Below are positions 1,336-32,904 of a DNA stretch of 64,000 nucleotides, one piece after another (the first letter of the stretch is position 1; each line of letters starts with the position of its first letter). Below the pieces are notes generated by a model that had not been told where the DNA came from, ran no database searches, and was given only the letters and a program-made list of their open reading frames with translations. Origin of the DNA: Acidobacteriaceae bacterium (GTDB taxonomy: Bacteria > Acidobacteriota > Terriglobia > Terriglobales > Acidobacteriaceae); the NCBI GenBank assembly GCA_027452245.1, contig DAIDGW010000049.1, forward strand, positions 1-64,000, written 5' to 3'. Both the position numbers and the translations under genes were made by a program.

Positions 1336-2100
1336 TTACCCGCCCGTCGTCTCATCCGCAGGCGAGAACGACAGTACCGCCCGCCCCGACGTCGGATGCC
1401 CCATCGACAGCGCTGGACGGAATGTCGTGAAGATCAGCATCTGCTTCACTTCCGGCAGCAACTTCTTCGCGCCCTTCGGCTCGGAAAGAATCCTGTAATC
1501 GTCTACCCGGCCATTCACGCCGATCGTCGCCTCGATCACCAGCGAGTCCGCGTCGATTGTGCTGCTCGACATATTGAACGCGCTCTGCTCCAGCTCCGGA
1601 GCCGTATTCACCATGACCAGCGGAACATCGTCGATGTTCGCCCGCAAGGGCACGGGCACTGCGAAATACGCCATCACCACACCAAAGATCAGTACGGCGC
1701 TTAAAAATCCGGCCGTCACCGGAACCATGAAGGCCTGCATTTCATTCTCTACCCGCACCAGCCATCCCTCGAACCATGGCTCGCGGGTCCGCGCCGCTTC
1801 ATGCGAGATCGCCAGGCGCAGCTTCAATCCCAAATCTGCCGGAAGCTTCGGCTTTCCCACGCTGGCCAGCATCTGTTGCGTGCCGCGCAACAGGCGATAC
1901 TCCTCGGTGCACTCCGCGCATGCGGCCAGATGCTTCTGCACGGCGCGCATCTGCCAACCGGTCACCGCGCCGTCCAGGTATACAGAGAATAGATTTCTGG
2001 CTTCCGGGCACTGCAACTCCCGCTGCTCGCCCGATCCCCACGTCCCCGCCGGTCTCGAATCTCCGCGCGAGGTTTTGAGTCTCATTTGCTTGAGCCTCAT
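1336..2100 (-). CDS. Putative anti-sigma factor: zinc-finger-like N-terminus, one TM segment, TonB-C-like periplasmic domain
   Basis: HLAACAECTEEYRLL zinc-finger motif; central TM; 4-bp overlap with upstream sigma factor gene. Confidence 0.8.
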   Translation of the reverse strand: MRLKQMRLKTSRGDSRPAGTWGSGEQRELQCPEARNLFSVYLDGAVTGWQMRAVQKHLAACAECTEEYRLLRGTQQMLASVGKPKLPADLGLKLRLAISHEAARTREPWFEGWLVRVENEMQAFMVPVTAGFLSAVLIFGVVMAYFAVPVPLRANIDDVPLVMVNTAPELEQSAFNMSSSTIDADSLVIEATIGVNGRVDDYRILSEPKGAKKLLPEVKQMLIFTTFRPALSMGHPTSGRAVLSFSPADETTGG

Positions 2101-2819
2101 GGTGTCACCTCGACCCTTCTACCCCCCGTGAACCGTAGCTTTTCCCCAGGATTTTCTGTTTCTACCGGCTGGGAAAGTCCCAAGTCTCTGCCAGCCTCGC
2201 GTACATACTTTGCCAATTGCTGCTTCAGTGCTTCCCGGCCACGCGTGAGCCGCGACTTGACCGTGCCCAGCGACACTTCCAGCACCTCGGCGATCTCTTC
2301 GTACGACATTTCTTCCAGGTCCCGCAGCACCAGCGTCGTGCGATACGGCTCCGCAACCTTTCTCAGCGCTTCTTCCACCTGCTGCCGCACCTCGCGATGC
2401 GCCACGTTGTCGAACGGAGAATCCCCGTGATCGGTCAGCGCCTCTTCCGTCTTGGCGCTCCGTTCTTCTTCCGGCGGATCGATCGATGTTTCCTGCGCCT
2501 TGTGCCGGAACCACCAGCGCCGCCGGTTCGCCGCTTCATGCAGCGCGATCCGGTAAATCCATGTCTTCAGGCTCGACTCCCCGTGAAAGTGGTTCATCCC
2601 GCGAAAGACCTTCAGGAAGACTTCCTGCGTGGTATCGGCCGCGTCTGACGGATCGCTCACGATCCGGTACACCAGACCGTAAACCGGCTGTTGAAATTCC
2701 CCAATTAACCAGGCGTATGCTTCTTCTGAGCCGGCCTTCAGTTCGGCCACGATGGCCGCTTCCTGCGACCGGATTCCTATTGCACTGACTAGATCACCCA
2801 AGGTGGTTGCCCCCGCCAT
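2097..2819 (-). CDS. ECF-type RNA polymerase sigma factor
   Basis: Sigma-70 region 2 (VYRIVSDPSDAADTTQEVFLKVFRGMNHFHGESSLKTWIYRIALHEAANRRR) and region 4 (LEEMSYEEIAEVLEVSLGTVKSRLTRGREALK). Confidence 0.92.
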   Translation of the reverse strand: MAGATTLGDLVSAIGIRSQEAAIVAELKAGSEEAYAWLIGEFQQPVYGLVYRIVSDPSDAADTTQEVFLKVFRGMNHFHGESSLKTWIYRIALHEAANRRRWWFRHKAQETSIDPPEEERSAKTEEALTDHGDSPFDNVAHREVRQQVEEALRKVAEPYRTTLVLRDLEEMSYEEIAEVLEVSLGTVKSRLTRGREALKQQLAKYVREAGRDLGLSQPVETENPGEKLRFTGGRRVEVTP

Positions 2820-3234
2820 ATTCCGGCGATCCTCTCATTCTATAGGAATTCCCACCTGATCGTGCCCGTCAAAAATCAGCCGCCAATGCCCGGCCCCACC
2901 CGAATCCCAGCAGAACCGTGACTCACTTGACATAGACTCCGCCGCCCTGTCCAGAGTTCCCACCGTTGCGCCCATTTGATTACCAGAGTAACCGGGCTTG
3001 GCTCTAACACCAGGAAGAGCCCGTGTAATCAAGCATTTCGGGAAGTTGCCGTGGCGACGGCGATCTCAGGTTGGCGCACCCCTAGCCTCTCAGACCGAAA
3101 CACCGAAATAAGGTCGAGTTCCCGCCGCCTCGGCGTCCTTTCGAGCCCGGCCACCTTCTCCTGGTGGAGCGAGACCTCCCGCCAACCGGACCTCTTTGGG
3201 ATTACAACAGTGCCGCCGCTCCTCCGCCCTTCCC

Positions 3235-3262
3235 GGTAGTGGGCGAAAAGTCGCCCACTACC
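3235..3262. repeat. Perfect 12-bp inverted repeat GGTAGTGGGCGA-AAAG-TCGCCCACTACC upstream of S9 peptidase gene
   Basis: Read directly; arms exactly complementary, 4-nt loop. Confidence 0.9.
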
Positions 3263-3331
3263 TCCTTCCCGTTTCTCTTTCTTTTACCGCTCTAACTCGT
3301 TACACTCGTCCGTTTGCCATTAGGAGCCCTC

Positions 3332-5494
3332 ATGCGCCGCATTCTTATTGCCGTAATTACTCTGCTCTCGTTTGCTGCCGTTGCCTTCGCCCAGGCCAGG
3401 CACCCCTTCACCTTCGATGACATGATGAAGCTGAAGCGCGTGGACGATCCCCAGGTCTCGCCCGACGGCAAGTGGGTCATCTACAGCGTGGTCGACGTCG
3501 ACCTCGCCGCCAACACCCGCATCCCGCACATCTGGATTGTCCCCATCTCTGGCGGACAGGAGCGCGAACTTACCTCCGCTCAGGCCGGCGAGCGTCCCCG
3601 CTGGGCCCCCGATGGCAAGCGCTTCGCTTTCACCTCCACTAAACAAAACGGCTCACAAATCTGGATTGCCGATTTTGACAATGCCGCGGGAACCGTGACT
3701 GGCGTTCATCAGCTCACCAACATCGCCACCGAAGCCAGCGGCGAAATCTGGTCGCCCGATGGCAAGAACATTCTGTTTGTCTCGGACGTCTATCCCGAAT
3801 GCGACGGCGCACCTGAAAAGGAAATTCCGTGTGACGCAAATAAAGTCAAGGAAGCTGAGCAATCTAAGGTTAAAGCTCAGATCTTTACCCATCTTCTCTA
3901 TCGCCATTGGAATGCCTTCAAGGAAGGCAAGCGCACGCACATCCTGGTCATAAGCGCTGCCGCGCCCGGAGGAACAGCACACGATCAACTTACGGGGATC
4001 CCTCGCGACCTCACTCCTGGCGACTACGATGCTCCCGTCTTCTCTCTTGGCGGGCAGGACGATTACGCCTTTTCACCCGACGGCAAAGAAATTTGCTACG
4101 CGTCGAATCACGACAAGAATCCCGCGGCTTCGACTAACAACGATTTATGGATCGTCCCGGTCACCGGAGGCGAAGCCAAGAACATCACCGCCGACAATCC
4201 TGCCAGCGACACCTCCCCGCTCTACTCGCCCGACGGACGCTACATCGCCTACCGCGCCCAGCAGCGGCCCGGATACGAGAGCGATCGTTTCCGCCTCATG
4301 CTCTACGACCGCCAGACCCGCCAGAAGAAGAACATGACCGAGGACTTCGATCATTGGGTCGGTACCTACGTCTGGGCGCCGGACTCGAAAGCCATCTACT
4401 TCAGCTCCGAAGAGAGCGGCGGAGCGCCCTTGTTCCGGCTCGGGGTGAATCATGAAAGCATCACGCGCATCGTGCAGGGAACATTCGATGAAATGAATTT
4501 TGCCCCCGACGGCAAAACCCTGCTGCTGACGCAAATGTCCGTGGCCTACCCGACCCGCATCGAGGCCGTCGAGACCGGCTCGGTCGAAGATCTCGTGGCT
4601 CAAATGGAAACCAGGCGCCCCAAAAACGCCATGGGCGGCATTGGAACCATGACTGATATCGTTCCAAAAGTTATCGCGGATCCCAATGCGCACCTGCTCT
4701 CGGAAATCGATATGCAGCCCCTCGAATCCTACTGGTTCACCGGCGCGCACAACGACAAGGTGGAAGGCTTCGTGATCAAGCCTCCCAGCTTCAGTTCCGG
4801 CAGAAAGTATCCCGTGAAGTTCCTTATCCACGGTGGGCCGCAAGGCGCCTGGGGAGACGATTGGAGCTATCGCTGGAATCCCGAACTGTTCGCCGCCAAC
4901 GGATACGTGATCGTGATGATCAACTTCCACGGCTCGACCGGGTACGGGCAGAAGTTCATCGATGCCATTAACGGCGATTGGGGCGGCGCTCCCTTCGACG
5001 ACCTGATGAAGGGGCTCGATTACGCCGAGCAGCATTACCCGTTCATCGACAAAAACCGCGAGTGCGCGCTCGGCGCCAGCTACGGCGGATACGCGATCAA
5101 CTGGATCGAAGGCCACACCGACCGCTTCAAGTGCTTGGTCTCGCACGACGGCATGTTCAATGCCGAGTCGGCGTGGGGAGCCACCGAAGAACTCTGGTTC
5201 AACAACTGGGAATTCAAAGGCACTCCGTACGACAACCGCGAACTCTACCGCAAGTGGTCGCCGCACGAGTACGCCAGGAATTTCAAAACGCCGATGCTGG
5301 TCATCCACGGGCAGCGCGACTACCGCCTCGACGTCTCGCAGGGATTCGACCTGTTCACCACCCTGCAGATGGAAGGCGTTCCCTCAGAGATGCTCTACTT
5401 CCCCGACGAAGGACATTTCGTGCTGAAGCCGCAGAACGCCCAACTCTGGTACAGAACCGTCAACGCCTGGGTCGACCGCTGGATCGGAAAGTAA
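3332..5494 (+). CDS. S9 family peptidase (prolyl oligopeptidase / acylaminoacyl peptidase-like), secreted
   Basis: WD40-like PD40 repeats (SPDGKWVIYS), C-terminal alpha/beta hydrolase with GASYGGYA nucleophile elbow and GHFVLKPQN; signal peptide after ATG 3332. Confidence 0.95.
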   Translation: MRRILIAVITLLSFAAVAFAQARHPFTFDDMMKLKRVDDPQVSPDGKWVIYSVVDVDLAANTRIPHIWIVPISGGQERELTSAQAGERPRWAPDGKRFAFTSTKQNGSQIWIADFDNAAGTVTGVHQLTNIATEASGEIWSPDGKNILFVSDVYPECDGAPEKEIPCDANKVKEAEQSKVKAQIFTHLLYRHWNAFKEGKRTHILVISAAAPGGTAHDQLTGIPRDLTPGDYDAPVFSLGGQDDYAFSPDGKEICYASNHDKNPAASTNNDLWIVPVTGGEAKNITADNPASDTSPLYSPDGRYIAYRAQQRPGYESDRFRLMLYDRQTRQKKNMTEDFDHWVGTYVWAPDSKAIYFSSEESGGAPLFRLGVNHESITRIVQGTFDEMNFAPDGKTLLLTQMSVAYPTRIEAVETGSVEDLVAQMETRRPKNAMGGIGTMTDIVPKVIADPNAHLLSEIDMQPLESYWFTGAHNDKVEGFVIKPPSFSSGRKYPVKFLIHGGPQGAWGDDWSYRWNPELFAANGYVIVMINFHGSTGYGQKFIDAINGDWGGAPFDDLMKGLDYAEQHYPFIDKNRECALGASYGGYAINWIEGHTDRFKCLVSHDGMFNAESAWGATEELWFNNWEFKGTPYDNRELYRKWSPHEYARNFKTPMLVIHGQRDYRLDVSQGFDLFTTLQMEGVPSEMLYFPDEGHFVLKPQNAQLWYRTVNAWVDRWIGK

Positions 5495-27702: not shown

Positions 27703-27779
27703 GGCGGTGTAGCTCAGGTGGTTAGAGCGACGGTCTCATAATCCGTAGGTCGCTGGTTCGAGTCCAGCCGCCGCCACCA
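27703..27779 (+). tRNA. tRNA-Met (anticodon CAT), with encoded CCA
   Basis: GGCGGTGTAGCTCAGGTGGTTAGAGCGACGGTCTCATAATCCGTAGGTCGCTGGTTCGAGTCCAGCCGCCGCCACCA folds as a cloverleaf; elongator Met vs Ile2 not strictly resolved. Confidence 0.93.
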
Positions 27780-27976
27780 GGATTCAAAGCTCCGACCCCA
27801 AGGTTTGCAACCAACTGTCTCGATCCTGTACATGGTCCAGAGAACGGAAGATTCTGGGACAAACCCTCTAGTTTCTCGAACGTTTACAAAATGGACGACT
27901 TCCGTCCGAATTCCGAGCTGCGTCGGCTTTGGCAGAACGCGTGCACTCTCCTGATCGTGTTCGCAGAGGTATACCC

Positions 27977-28381
27977 ATGAGCAGCATTCAGATCATTCAT
28001 GAACAGATAGCAGCCAGTATTCAGGCCGAACGCCGCCAATTTCAACGCGTCAGAGCAGCGGTCCAGATCGAATTGAAAATCGAAGGCACCAATGTACCGA
28101 TTCGTGTCGAAACTTCGGATATTTCAGAAGGTGGCTGCTACGTTGAAATGCCCCTGACGCTGCCGAAAGACGCCAAGCTGCAAATTCTGCTGTGGCTGGG
28201 ACAGGACAAACTCGTGTTTTCGGGGCGCGTTGCGACCAGTCACCCACAATTCGGAAATGGTATTGAGTTCTGCACGCTTTCCCAGGATTGTACCCGGAAG
28301 CTGGTTCAGTACATTGACAGGGAGCGATTGGTGAGCGACTCCGCAACCTCCCCGGCTGCGGCAGTGTCGCTGATTGTGTAA
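27977..28381 (+). CDS. Stand-alone PilZ domain protein
   Basis: RRQFQR (RxxxR) and DISEGG (D/NxSxxG) c-di-GMP-binding signatures. Confidence 0.9.
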   Translation: MSSIQIIHEQIAASIQAERRQFQRVRAAVQIELKIEGTNVPIRVETSDISEGGCYVEMPLTLPKDAKLQILLWLGQDKLVFSGRVATSHPQFGNGIEFCTLSQDCTRKLVQYIDRERLVSDSATSPAAAVSLIV

Positions 28382-28551: not shown

Positions 28552-29205
28552 CTATCGCGGAGCAACCAGGCAGTGATTTACCGCGTGCACAGAAAGCATG
28601 ATCCGATTCTGCACACCTACCTTGCGCATGAGTTTCGCCACATGCGCTTTCACCGTGCGAACCTCGATACCCAAGGGTATTGCGATTTCTTTGTTTGACC
28701 GTCCCGCAACAAGCATTTCCAGCACCTCTTGTTCGCGGCTCGTAAAATCAACCCTGCCGCTGATCCGGCCGCCGTAACCGGTGGAACGATCTACAAATTT
28801 GGCGAGCACTCTTCGCGGCGCCCAAATGAGTCCTTCGCTCACTATCCGGATCGCATTCACGAACTCTGAGGCCACGGCGGCTTCGTCGACATAACCCTTT
28901 GCCCCGATCGACAATGCCTCCAGCATGTTCTCGTCATCGCCACCCTGGCCAGTCACGATGACTCCGAGATTCGGATTCGCCAATCTCAGCTGTTGCAGAA
29001 TTCCGGATAACGCCTGTGAGTTTCGTCGCGCGACGATCATGACCTGGAATTCCGAGGCCCGTCCGATTTCGCCTAGCGACAATGACTGCAAATCTAGGTC
29101 ATCCTGCCCTCCCATTAGCGCGCGAAAACCCGCGATGCGCAAAGGATCGGCTTCCAAGATTCCGACATGAATGCAAGCTTGTTGTTTAGGATTGCGAGTT
29201 TTCAT
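28552..29205 (-). CDS. LuxR/NarL-type response regulator with atypical receiver
   Basis: C-terminal HTH FTSREQEVLEMLVAGRSNKEIAIPLGIEVRTVKAHVAKLMRKVGV; receiver-like N-terminus lacking the usual phospho-Asp. Confidence 0.88.
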   Translation of the reverse strand: MKTRNPKQQACIHVGILEADPLRIAGFRALMGGQDDLDLQSLSLGEIGRASEFQVMIVARRNSQALSGILQQLRLANPNLGVIVTGQGGDDENMLEALSIGAKGYVDEAAVASEFVNAIRIVSEGLIWAPRRVLAKFVDRSTGYGGRISGRVDFTSREQEVLEMLVAGRSNKEIAIPLGIEVRTVKAHVAKLMRKVGVQNRIMLSVHAVNHCLVAPR

Positions 29206-30111: not shown

Positions 30112-32904
30112 ATGACTGGAGCCACGGCTATTGCTGCCAGAACGCGGAGCCATGTTCGCCCTTGGCGAAGCATCCCATGGGCGGCAAGACTCTTCATTTC
30201 CGTAATTATTGTCGCCGGGACCAGTGTCCTGTCGTATGGCGCGGTGCATCAGTCCAGCCGAAATATTGCCGAGTTCATCTGTTATCTCGGAATCGCAATT
30301 CTCGCTTCGAGATTAAAGGTCAGCCTGCCTGGGATCACCGGAACTCTTTCGGTGAATTTTCTTTTCATCCTGATCGGGGTCTTAGAACTGAGTTTTGCCG
30401 AGACGCTCACGCTGGGCGCGGTATCGATGCTGGCGCAGTGCTTGTACCCTGACCCGCCCCGTGCCATACAAACCACTTTTAACGTGTGTGCAGGATCGAT
30501 CTCAACCGCCCTGGCATACCTGGCCTATCACGACCCAGTGATAAATGACCTGGTATCCAGCAAGCCCATCCTGCTCTGTCTGGCTGCGTCCGTCTATTTC
30601 ATTGCGAACGCCGGTTCGATTGCGACCGTAATCTCACTCGCGGAAGGGCGCCGTTTTACCGGAATTCTGGTCGATTGCTATTTCTGGTCTTTCCCCTATT
30701 ATCTCGTGGGCGCCGGTATTGCCGGAGGCGTGGCATGGCTGAATCACACCTTTAACTGGGAATCGTCGTTGCTGTTGGTCCCCGCAGTGTACGTCATTTA
30801 CCGTTCGTATCGCCTCTACCTGGGAAAGCTCGAGGATGAAAAACGCCACGTCGAAGAGATCGCCAACCTCCATTTGCGAACCATTGAAGCCTTGGCCCTT
30901 GCTATCGAAGCCAAAGACCAGACAACCCATGACCACCTGCAACGCGTTCGCGTCTACGCAATTGAAGTAGCCAAGGAATTAGGAGTTACCGGAGCTGAAC
31001 TCGAGGCCTTGCATGCGGCTGCTTTGTTGCACGATATCGGAAAGCTAGCGGTACCCGAGCACATCATCTCGAAACCCGGCCGCCTGACCCCCGAAGAGTT
31101 TGAAAAAATGAAGATTCACACGATCGTAGGGGCTGAGATCCTCGAGCGTGTCCGGTTTCCCTATCCGGTGGTCCCGATTGTCCGCGCTCACCATGAGAAA
31201 TGGGACGGAACTGGCTATCCCATGGGACTCAAAGGGGCCGAGATCCCAGTCGGTGCACGCATCTTGTCTGCGGTTGATTATCTCGACGCTCTTGCCTCAG
31301 ACCGGCAGTATCGCCGCGCGTTGCCCTTAAATGAAGTCATGAAGAAACTTGCGGCCGAGTCGGGAAAATCGTTCGACCCCAAGGTGGTTGACGTTTTGCA
31401 GCGCCGTTATCAAAGCCTGGAACGCATGGCTATCGCCAAGTCCGCACAGGACGGTAACAGTCCACTCTCGACGGGAACAAAGATTGAACGCGGCGAAGCC
31501 CCCGCTGCCGGATTTGAAAACACTGCCGCACGTGATTACGCGGGTCGCGAGGCCACATTTCTTTCTTCGATCGCCGCCGCCCGCCAGGAGGCACAAGCTC
31601 TTTTCGAACTGAGCCAGGATCTTGGAGCCTCGCTCAGTTTGGGCGAAACACTTTCTGTATTCTCGCTCAAGCTCAAGCCCATGGTTCCCTATGACGCGAT
31701 CGCGATCTACATCAAACGGGACGATGAACTGATTCCCGAATACGTCAATGGCGATAACTACCGTCTCTTCTCCTCGCTGCGAATTCCCATGGGACAGGGA
31801 CTTTCTGGATGGGTAGCGCAAAATAGAAAGCCGATCATCAACGGAAATCCCTCGGTTGAGCCTGGATATCTGAATGATCCCATGAAGTTCAGCACGCTGC
31901 AGTCCGCTCTGGCGGTACCGCTCGAAGCGGTGGGCGGAATCGTCGGCGTGCTGGCGCTCTATCGTGCCGAGCGCGATTCATTCACCTCTGACCACTTGCG
32001 CATCATGCTGGCCGTCAGCAGCAAGATGGCCTTGTCCATCGAAAACGCCCTGAAATACCAGCAGGCGGAAAATTCAGCTACTACCGATTATTTGACAGGA
32101 TTGCCCAATGCCCGCTCGCTCTTCTTACAGCTTGACCGCGAACTTGCCCGTTGTAAGCGCGACAATTCCTCGGTTACAGTCATGGTCTGCGATCTCGACG
32201 GCTTCAAGCAGATCAACGATCGCTTCGGCCATCTTGAAGGCAACCGGACGCTCCGCCTGTTCGCCCAGGCCCTAAAAGACACCTGCCGCGAGTACGATTA
32301 TGTCGCTCGCATGGGCGGCGACGAGTTTGTTGTTGTTGTTCCGGGACTGCAGCCCGACGCCTCAGGCAAAAAAGCCGAGCAACTCCGCACGCTTGCGAAA
32401 CAAGCAGGATTCGATGTATGCGGCGAAGAAATTCTATCTTTAAGCGTGGGACAGGCCGTCTATCCCACCGATGGCCAGGATGCCGAAGAGCTTCTCGCCG
32501 AAGCCGATCGGCGCATGTACCTCGAAAAGCAAAAGCAGCTCTCCTACAAGGATCGCCGCGCCCATCCCCGCATGAAATGCCGCGTCACGATCGAGTTGCA
32601 GGCGGGCGAAAGCCGTACACCCGTTTTCGGAACACTTATCGATCTCAGCATGGGAGGCTGTTATGTCGAAACCAGCGAGATCCTCGCTGTAGGCACACGG
32701 GTCCGCATCGGTTTCTCACTGGACACGGGCAGTCTTTGGGCGGAAGGCAGTATCACTCGCATCGATCCAGGTTCCGGCCTGGCCGTGCAGTTCCGCGAAG
32801 TAAACCGCGAAGGGCGCGACAAGATGCTCAGGATCATTGAGTATGTCCAGAAGACAACCGCGTTCTACAACAATCGTTATTTCGACAGCCTGGTCAAGCG
32901 CTAA
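30112..32904 (+). CDS. Membrane HD-GYP + GAF + GGDEF + PilZ multidomain c-di-GMP protein
   Basis: N-terminal TM segments; LLHDIGK...HHEKWDGTGYP; GAF-like region; REYDYVARMGGDEF (I-site RxxD plus GGDEF); RRAHPR...DLSMGG PilZ. Confidence 0.93.
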   Translation: MTGATAIAARTRSHVRPWRSIPWAARLFISVIIVAGTSVLSYGAVHQSSRNIAEFICYLGIAILASRLKVSLPGITGTLSVNFLFILIGVLELSFAETLTLGAVSMLAQCLYPDPPRAIQTTFNVCAGSISTALAYLAYHDPVINDLVSSKPILLCLAASVYFIANAGSIATVISLAEGRRFTGILVDCYFWSFPYYLVGAGIAGGVAWLNHTFNWESSLLLVPAVYVIYRSYRLYLGKLEDEKRHVEEIANLHLRTIEALALAIEAKDQTTHDHLQRVRVYAIEVAKELGVTGAELEALHAAALLHDIGKLAVPEHIISKPGRLTPEEFEKMKIHTIVGAEILERVRFPYPVVPIVRAHHEKWDGTGYPMGLKGAEIPVGARILSAVDYLDALASDRQYRRALPLNEVMKKLAAESGKSFDPKVVDVLQRRYQSLERMAIAKSAQDGNSPLSTGTKIERGEAPAAGFENTAARDYAGREATFLSSIAAARQEAQALFELSQDLGASLSLGETLSVFSLKLKPMVPYDAIAIYIKRDDELIPEYVNGDNYRLFSSLRIPMGQGLSGWVAQNRKPIINGNPSVEPGYLNDPMKFSTLQSALAVPLEAVGGIVGVLALYRAERDSFTSDHLRIMLAVSSKMALSIENALKYQQAENSATTDYLTGLPNARSLFLQLDRELARCKRDNSSVTVMVCDLDGFKQINDRFGHLEGNRTLRLFAQALKDTCREYDYVARMGGDEFVVVVPGLQPDASGKKAEQLRTLAKQAGFDVCGEEILSLSVGQAVYPTDGQDAEELLAEADRRMYLEKQKQLSYKDRRAHPRMKCRVTIELQAGESRTPVFGTLIDLSMGGCYVETSEILAVGTRVRIGFSLDTGSLWAEGSITRIDPGSGLAVQFREVNREGRDKMLRIIEYVQKTTAFYNNRYFDSLVKR

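Follow-up and report, generated by a model that had tools for sequence, protein, structure and literature searches.

We observed that one open reading frame from a soil acidobacterium encodes a 930-residue membrane protein in which HD-GYP, GAF, GGDEF and PilZ domains follow one another in a single chain, and that this architecture is a real, conserved lineage. The reading that we favour, and to which we give about an even chance, is that of a membrane-bound protein for signal-controlled local turnover of a cyclic dinucleotide, built around an ancestral phosphodiesterase core. Since the guanine-specific contacts of the GGDEF domain are altered, c-di-GMP cannot be assumed to be its sole product.

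Domain architecture and gene context

The gene was examined in a 64,000-nucleotide stretch of DNA (the window) from a draft genome of 6.23 Mb. Residues 1-246 of the protein are membrane helices. In a Pfam profile search, the four soluble domains each exceeded the family cut-off (HD_5, residues 263-425, 128.6 bits; GAF_2, 546-644, 46.1 bits; GGDEF, 656-808, 139.1 bits; PilZ, 814-910, 55.6 bits). This domain search, for which the initial annotation had called, bore out its coordinates and its order of domains (Table 1).

Table 1. Coordinates in the window of the gene, its domains and key residues, and of a neighbouring PilZ gene
Feature	Position	Strand	Basis or remark
Stand-alone PilZ protein (single domain), about 2 kb upstream of the ORF	27929..28381	+	Pfam PilZ, 47 bits
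ORF: MASE9-like membrane domain, HD-GYP, GAF, GGDEF, PilZ	30112..32904	+	930 aa
Membrane domain, residues 23-246, MASE9-like, predicted ECF S-component-like fold	30178..30849	+	MASE9 matches in relatives; model
HD-GYP domain (HD_5), residues 263-425	30898..31386	+	Pfam; PDB relatives V-cGAP3 5z7c and PmGH 4mcw
Seven PmGH-type metal ligands H275, H307, D308, H336, H360, H361, D389; T271 at PmGH E185	30934..31278	+	Alignment
GAF domain, residues about 512-644	31645..32043	+	Pfam
GGDEF domain, residues 656-808	32077..32535	+	Pfam
A667, cross-dimer Arg position (PadC R537, GacA Y304)	32110..32112	+	Ala in 34/34 PilZ-clade sequences
N711, guanine-specificity position (PleD D344, GacA S348)	32242..32244	+	Asn in 34/34 PilZ-clade sequences
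I-site RxxD (R726, D729)	32287..32298	+	34/34 in PilZ clade
GGDEF motif, residues 735-739	32314..32328	+	34/34 in PilZ clade
PilZ domain, residues 814-910, R816xxxR820 and D844LSMGG849	32551..32841	+	Pfam; alignment
C-terminal helix after PilZ, residues 899-929	32806..32898	+	Predicted model

The ORF is separated from a tRNA-Met gene (27703-27779) by the single PilZ protein (27929-28381, +) and a LuxR-type regulator (28552-29205, -). The PilZ protein is a possible second reader of the messenger, a link suggested by proximity alone. A CDF transporter and a DNA ligase downstream are common to the window locus and locus L050, but the neighbours at L038 differ, and we therefore rejected a stable operon around the gene. 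A promoter and terminator scan gave signals no higher than in shuffled sequence, and PADLOC returned only weak HD matches to Cas3, with no link to defence.

Of the 66 loci with enough upstream sequence, 22 had an S8 (subtilisin-like) peptidase gene, mostly divergent, no more than about 2 kb ahead of the HD-GYP gene; none was found within the window. These peptidase genes often carry tandem WGS/VVWG repeats. The loci include L278:2434/2563 (G000:C5), L277:107-1799 (G000:C80), L044, L046, L058, L060, L067, L073, L077, L085, L087, L092, L106, L109, L110, L115 and L116, among others. In the genome of the window, the top two of seven S8 matches lie next to the paralogue L003 and next to a membrane domain encoded on its own. 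A 265-aa protein at L277:1002-1799 consists of the membrane sensor domain without an output domain, and its gene directly follows that of an S8 peptidase. A peptide signal is one guess as to what this neighbourhood means.

Distribution and history of the family

Close named relatives are nearly all metagenome-assembled Acidobacteriota, several of them labelled Candidatus Sulfotelmatobacter. Of 101 genomes of the same family, 26 had the PilZ-bearing architecture (complete in 21, in pieces in 5). The same domain order recurs in dozens of relatives, and a chance fusion or assembly join was rejected. Across a 199-genome sample of the phylum, 58 genomes held some relative at E<=1e-60, and no PilZ-bearing form was seen outside the family. 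The architecture had been described as uncommon, which on these counts is a relative matter.

The family alignment comprised 34 PilZ-bearing and 96 GGDEF-bearing rows, and the tree was built on the shared membrane-HD-GYP-GAF part. The PilZ-bearing rows formed one clade, with three counted changes for PilZ on the tree, including two rows cut by contig ends. PilZ therefore appears to have been gained about once, onto an older HD-GYP-GAF-GGDEF family. No intact close relative lacked HD-GYP, whereas the clade of L003 had lost GGDEF and PilZ was limited to its single clade. The genome of the window itself carries a series of paralogues, namely HD-GYP-GAF (L003), HD-GYP-GAF-GGDEF (L002) and the window protein. 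In one relative (L062), a PilZ-bearing copy (2038-4908) is followed about 2 kb further on by a second family member (from 6890) of the same strand. When members of the PilZ clade were compared in pairs, identity was 0.85 for HD-GYP, 0.81 for GAF, 0.79 for GGDEF, 0.55 for the membrane domain and 0.53 for PilZ.

The initial annotation had proposed a self-contained c-di-GMP homeostat, which is possible. A constant HD-GYP, a GGDEF that one clade has lost and a PilZ gained once argue instead for a regulated phosphodiesterase with added modules.

The HD-GYP domain

The HD pair, the HHExxDGxGYP motif and the metal-binding His and Asp residues are present. Seven of the eight ligands of PmGH are retained (the set of eight, including E185, is from PMC4159591), as are K311 and D269. 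The seven ligands (H275, H307, D308, H336, H360, H361 and D389) and K311 were invariant or nearly so in the family alignment, the exceptions being a row with a frameshift and a few members that have diverged. The residue that is missing is the carboxylate of the trinuclear subtype (PmGH E185; E/D-T-G). Its place is taken by T271, and the metal centre is thus probably binuclear. For this domain, the claim that every signature was intact fails at that ligand.

From these residues, the domain would be expected to hydrolyse c-di-GMP. As only one strong EAL domain was found in the genome, the HD-GYP proteins probably bear much of its phosphodiesterase load.

The GGDEF domain and its altered pocket

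The features of a canonical diguanylate cyclase that we found in the GGDEF domain are the GGDEF motif, the metal Asp, the catalytic Glu, a Lys near the end and the I-site RxxD, which does lie five residues ahead of the motif as had been annotated. D694, N702, D737, the catalytic E738 and K806 were each present in 34/34 PilZ-bearing sequences, as were R726 and D729 of the I-site. Two features are absent, namely the Asp at the PleD D344 position, which is N711 here, and the cross-dimer Arg, which is A667. Both were placed by alignment to the Hypr enzyme GmGacA (PDB 6d9m; Y304, S348), gap-free up to the GGDEF motif. The description of every signature as apparently intact therefore fails for this domain. 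A sequencing error is excluded, since both residues are fixed in the 34 PilZ-bearing sequences.

The two positions set GTP specificity in the Hypr enzymes that make cGAMP. Ordinary diguanylate cyclases have Arg at the cross-dimer position and, for reading guanine, Asp at the other (PMC6456294; PMC8041772; PMC9140294), and the Arg is found in 94% of predicted diguanylate cyclases (PMC6456294). The Asp is reported to be conserved in strict producers of c-di-GMP, and Ser or Thr in its place leads to use of GTP and ATP (PMC9140294). Loss of the Arg accompanies cGAMP output, and Hypr enzymes with Ala at this position are among those that make mainly cGAMP (PMC6456294; PMC8041772). This evidence speaks for a GGDEF domain whose choice of base has relaxed or shifted, giving a mixed or other dinucleotide such as 3',3'-cGAMP that the HD-GYP of the same chain would remove. 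We consider this rather unlikely overall. It would fit the PDB comparison of the HD-GYP part, in which a cGAMP phosphodiesterase scored highest, ahead of PmGH by a narrow margin.

In the wider Terriglobia family, Asn at 711 is the majority state (86/96), and Asp is found mostly within a nested clade to which the paralogue L002 belongs. Deeper relatives in the phylum mostly have Asp, usually also without the Arg, so Asn711 most likely arose inside the Terriglobia family. We also searched 99 acidobacterial genomes with a degenerate motif pattern, which gave 32 Asn-type and 750 Asp-type matches; 25 of the 30 Asn-type matches inspected were true GGDEF domains. Outside the family of the window protein, the cross-dimer Arg was absent from 18/19 Asn-type domains as against 16/46 Asp-type domains (Fisher P = 6e-6, on raw counts), which favours another product. 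However, a tree-aware check left only two supported independent comparisons, and the link between Asn711 and the loss of Arg667 is suggestive but not established once relatedness is allowed for. The Asn-type domains were also split about equally between GGDEF and GGEEF (13/12), unlike Ser/Thr types. This is in keeping with the equal length of Asn and Asp; Asn may simply replace Asp, which speaks against another product. Asn-type domains in several other acidobacterial lineages (L197-L226) nearly all lack the cross-dimer Arg.

A stand-alone GAF-GGDEF protein in the same genome (G000:C249:31543-32598; L124/L167) has Ala and Ser as its two selectivity residues, and its motif reads GGDEF. It grouped with GmGacA in the GGDEF tree (support 98/96) and is predicted to be a Hypr-type cGAMP synthase, with relatives in 37 of 119 genomes of the phylum. 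The presence of such an enzyme makes cGAMP signalling plausible in this organism, and it counts in favour of a non-standard product. The window GGDEF lies outside the Hypr clade, however, in a clade of its own (support 99/98). With Asn rather than Ser or Thr at the D344 position, the window protein was rejected as a Hypr enzyme by descent. The search of this genome for c-di-GMP-I and cGAMP-class riboswitches found none, which also tells against another product. Riboswitches were seen in 4 of 61 family genomes, one a c-di-GMP-I-GGC variant (RF03167) at L137 (G023) and three c-di-GMP-I.

In several GGDEF-EAL enzymes, the GGDEF domain acts as a regulator of the phosphodiesterase. The window GGDEF might likewise bind GTP or c-di-GMP and regulate HD-GYP rather than be a real cyclase, as its altered base contacts, the close-relative clade that keeps HD-GYP without GGDEF, and a GGVEF motif in one distant relative would allow. 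We think this unlikely; the conservation of Glu738, D694, D737, K806 and the I-site goes beyond the needs of a mere binder.

The PilZ domain

The PilZ signatures that had been reported, RxxxR (R816, R820) and DLSMGG, were found as described. Both Arg residues occur in 34/34 PilZ-bearing sequences and the Ser of (D/N)xSxxG in 33/34, and the domain is probably a c-di-GMP receptor. In Xanthomonas, the HD-GYP protein RpfG, a GGDEF protein and a PilZ protein form a complex in trans for which cyclase activity and c-di-GMP binding by PilZ are dispensable (PMC3749722). The window protein could thus be chiefly a scaffold, a one-chain form of that complex whose effect on a partner in motility or secretion would come from contacts and not from messenger levels. 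PilZ being the last-fused and most variable domain would suit a scaffold. Against it stand the strong conservation of the enzyme residues and of the two Arg in PilZ, and the absence of pilus or flagellar genes among those seen adjoining the gene; we regard it as very improbable.

The membrane sensor domain

The membrane part appears to be a MASE9 domain (Pfam PF20972). This profile matched 28 of 38 alignment members (best E 5.8e-9), the window copy alone falling below detection. A predicted model of residues 1-247 had a pLDDT of 83 and a pTM of 0.81. When its fold was searched against the PDB, ranks 1-11 were all ECF S-components or the S parts of ECF or transition-metal transporters (RibU, FolT and others), with probabilities of 0.96-1.00 but E values of 0.02-0.15, none below 0.001. 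The predicted resemblance to S-components is a lead and not proof. S-component folds have a precedent as receptor domains in the 5TMR group (PMC11109136). Should MASE9 prove to be related to S-components, a ligand resembling a vitamin or a metal would be a concrete candidate for the signal.

Proposed mechanism

The favoured reading of regulated local turnover would work as follows. The S-component-like MASE9 domain, perhaps on binding a small molecule, would set the state of the dimer, and the HD-GYP domain with its putative binuclear site would open c-di-GMP to pGpG. The GAF domain and a coiled-coil segment would relay this state to the two GGDEF domains, which have the catalytic residues and may be limited by feedback at the I-site. 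PilZ would bind c-di-GMP and either tune the enzymes or relay the local level to a partner. We infer both activities, the direction of signalling, the role of PilZ, and c-di-GMP as the main substrate and product. A full-length model had a pTM of 0.34 with poor domain arrangement, so the geometry of coupling between domains cannot be read from it; its fold search found again only the GGDEF and HD-GYP domains.

The initial annotation had placed breakdown, synthesis, product inhibition and binding of c-di-GMP in one protein. This is still the simplest reading, and little or no variation was seen in the catalytic, metal, I-site and PilZ residues of the 34 PilZ-bearing sequences. The guanine contacts, however, are altered. 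With N711 and A667, two presumed guanine contacts are lost, so that the GGDEF domain might make another product or bind GTP weakly. A bolder proposal, which we doubt, is that Asn711/Ala667 mark a separate acidobacterial GGDEF specificity class making a dinucleotide other than or besides c-di-GMP. Together with the HD-GYP breaker, the PilZ reader and an S-component-like nutrient sensor, this would give a one-chain controller of a non-standard messenger.

Comparison with known systems

In the open literature searched, we found no description of HD-GYP-GAF-GGDEF-PilZ in a single chain and no biochemistry on this protein family. A census of five alphaproteobacterial orders recorded no HD-GYP joined with GGDEF or EAL (PMC9756655). 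Within the same genome, L002 and L003 share the membrane domain and core of the window protein at 57-58% identity. Both lack PilZ; L002 has Asp at 711 and L003 has no GGDEF. This series, from HD-GYP-GAF through an Asp-type GGDEF to an Asn-type GGDEF with PilZ, is a natural experiment on the balancing of opposed activities and on the role of each domain.

The Hypr enzymes (GacA GSU1658/Gmet_1914 and Bd0367) resemble the window protein in a changed D344 position, the lack of the cross-dimer Arg and the mid-motif Asp (GGDEF), and the GacA entry also names a GAF domain. The window protein differs in having Asn and not Ser/Thr, a separate GGDEF clade, and a phosphodiesterase and PilZ of its own. 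Its Asn/Ala pocket bears on whether GGDEF specificity extends beyond two types, one with Asp (GTP) and one with Ser/Thr (GTP and ATP).

PmGH and V-cGAP3 are like the window protein in their HD-GYP fold. Of the eight ligands of PmGH the window protein keeps seven, and E185 of PmGH is Thr271 in its probably binuclear site. The Xanthomonas RpfG-GGDEF-PilZ complex has the same three domain types working together (PMC3749722), but as separate proteins, whereas the window protein is one chain without a REC domain. Bifunctional GGDEF-EAL enzymes hold opposed activities in one chain, as is predicted here; the window protein has HD-GYP in place of EAL, and PilZ attached. The 5TMR/S-component-fold receptors (PMC11109136), like the window protein as predicted here, carry an S-component-like membrane sensor ahead of GAF and c-di-GMP domains. 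The window sensor is MASE9-like, a term absent from the text of that paper.
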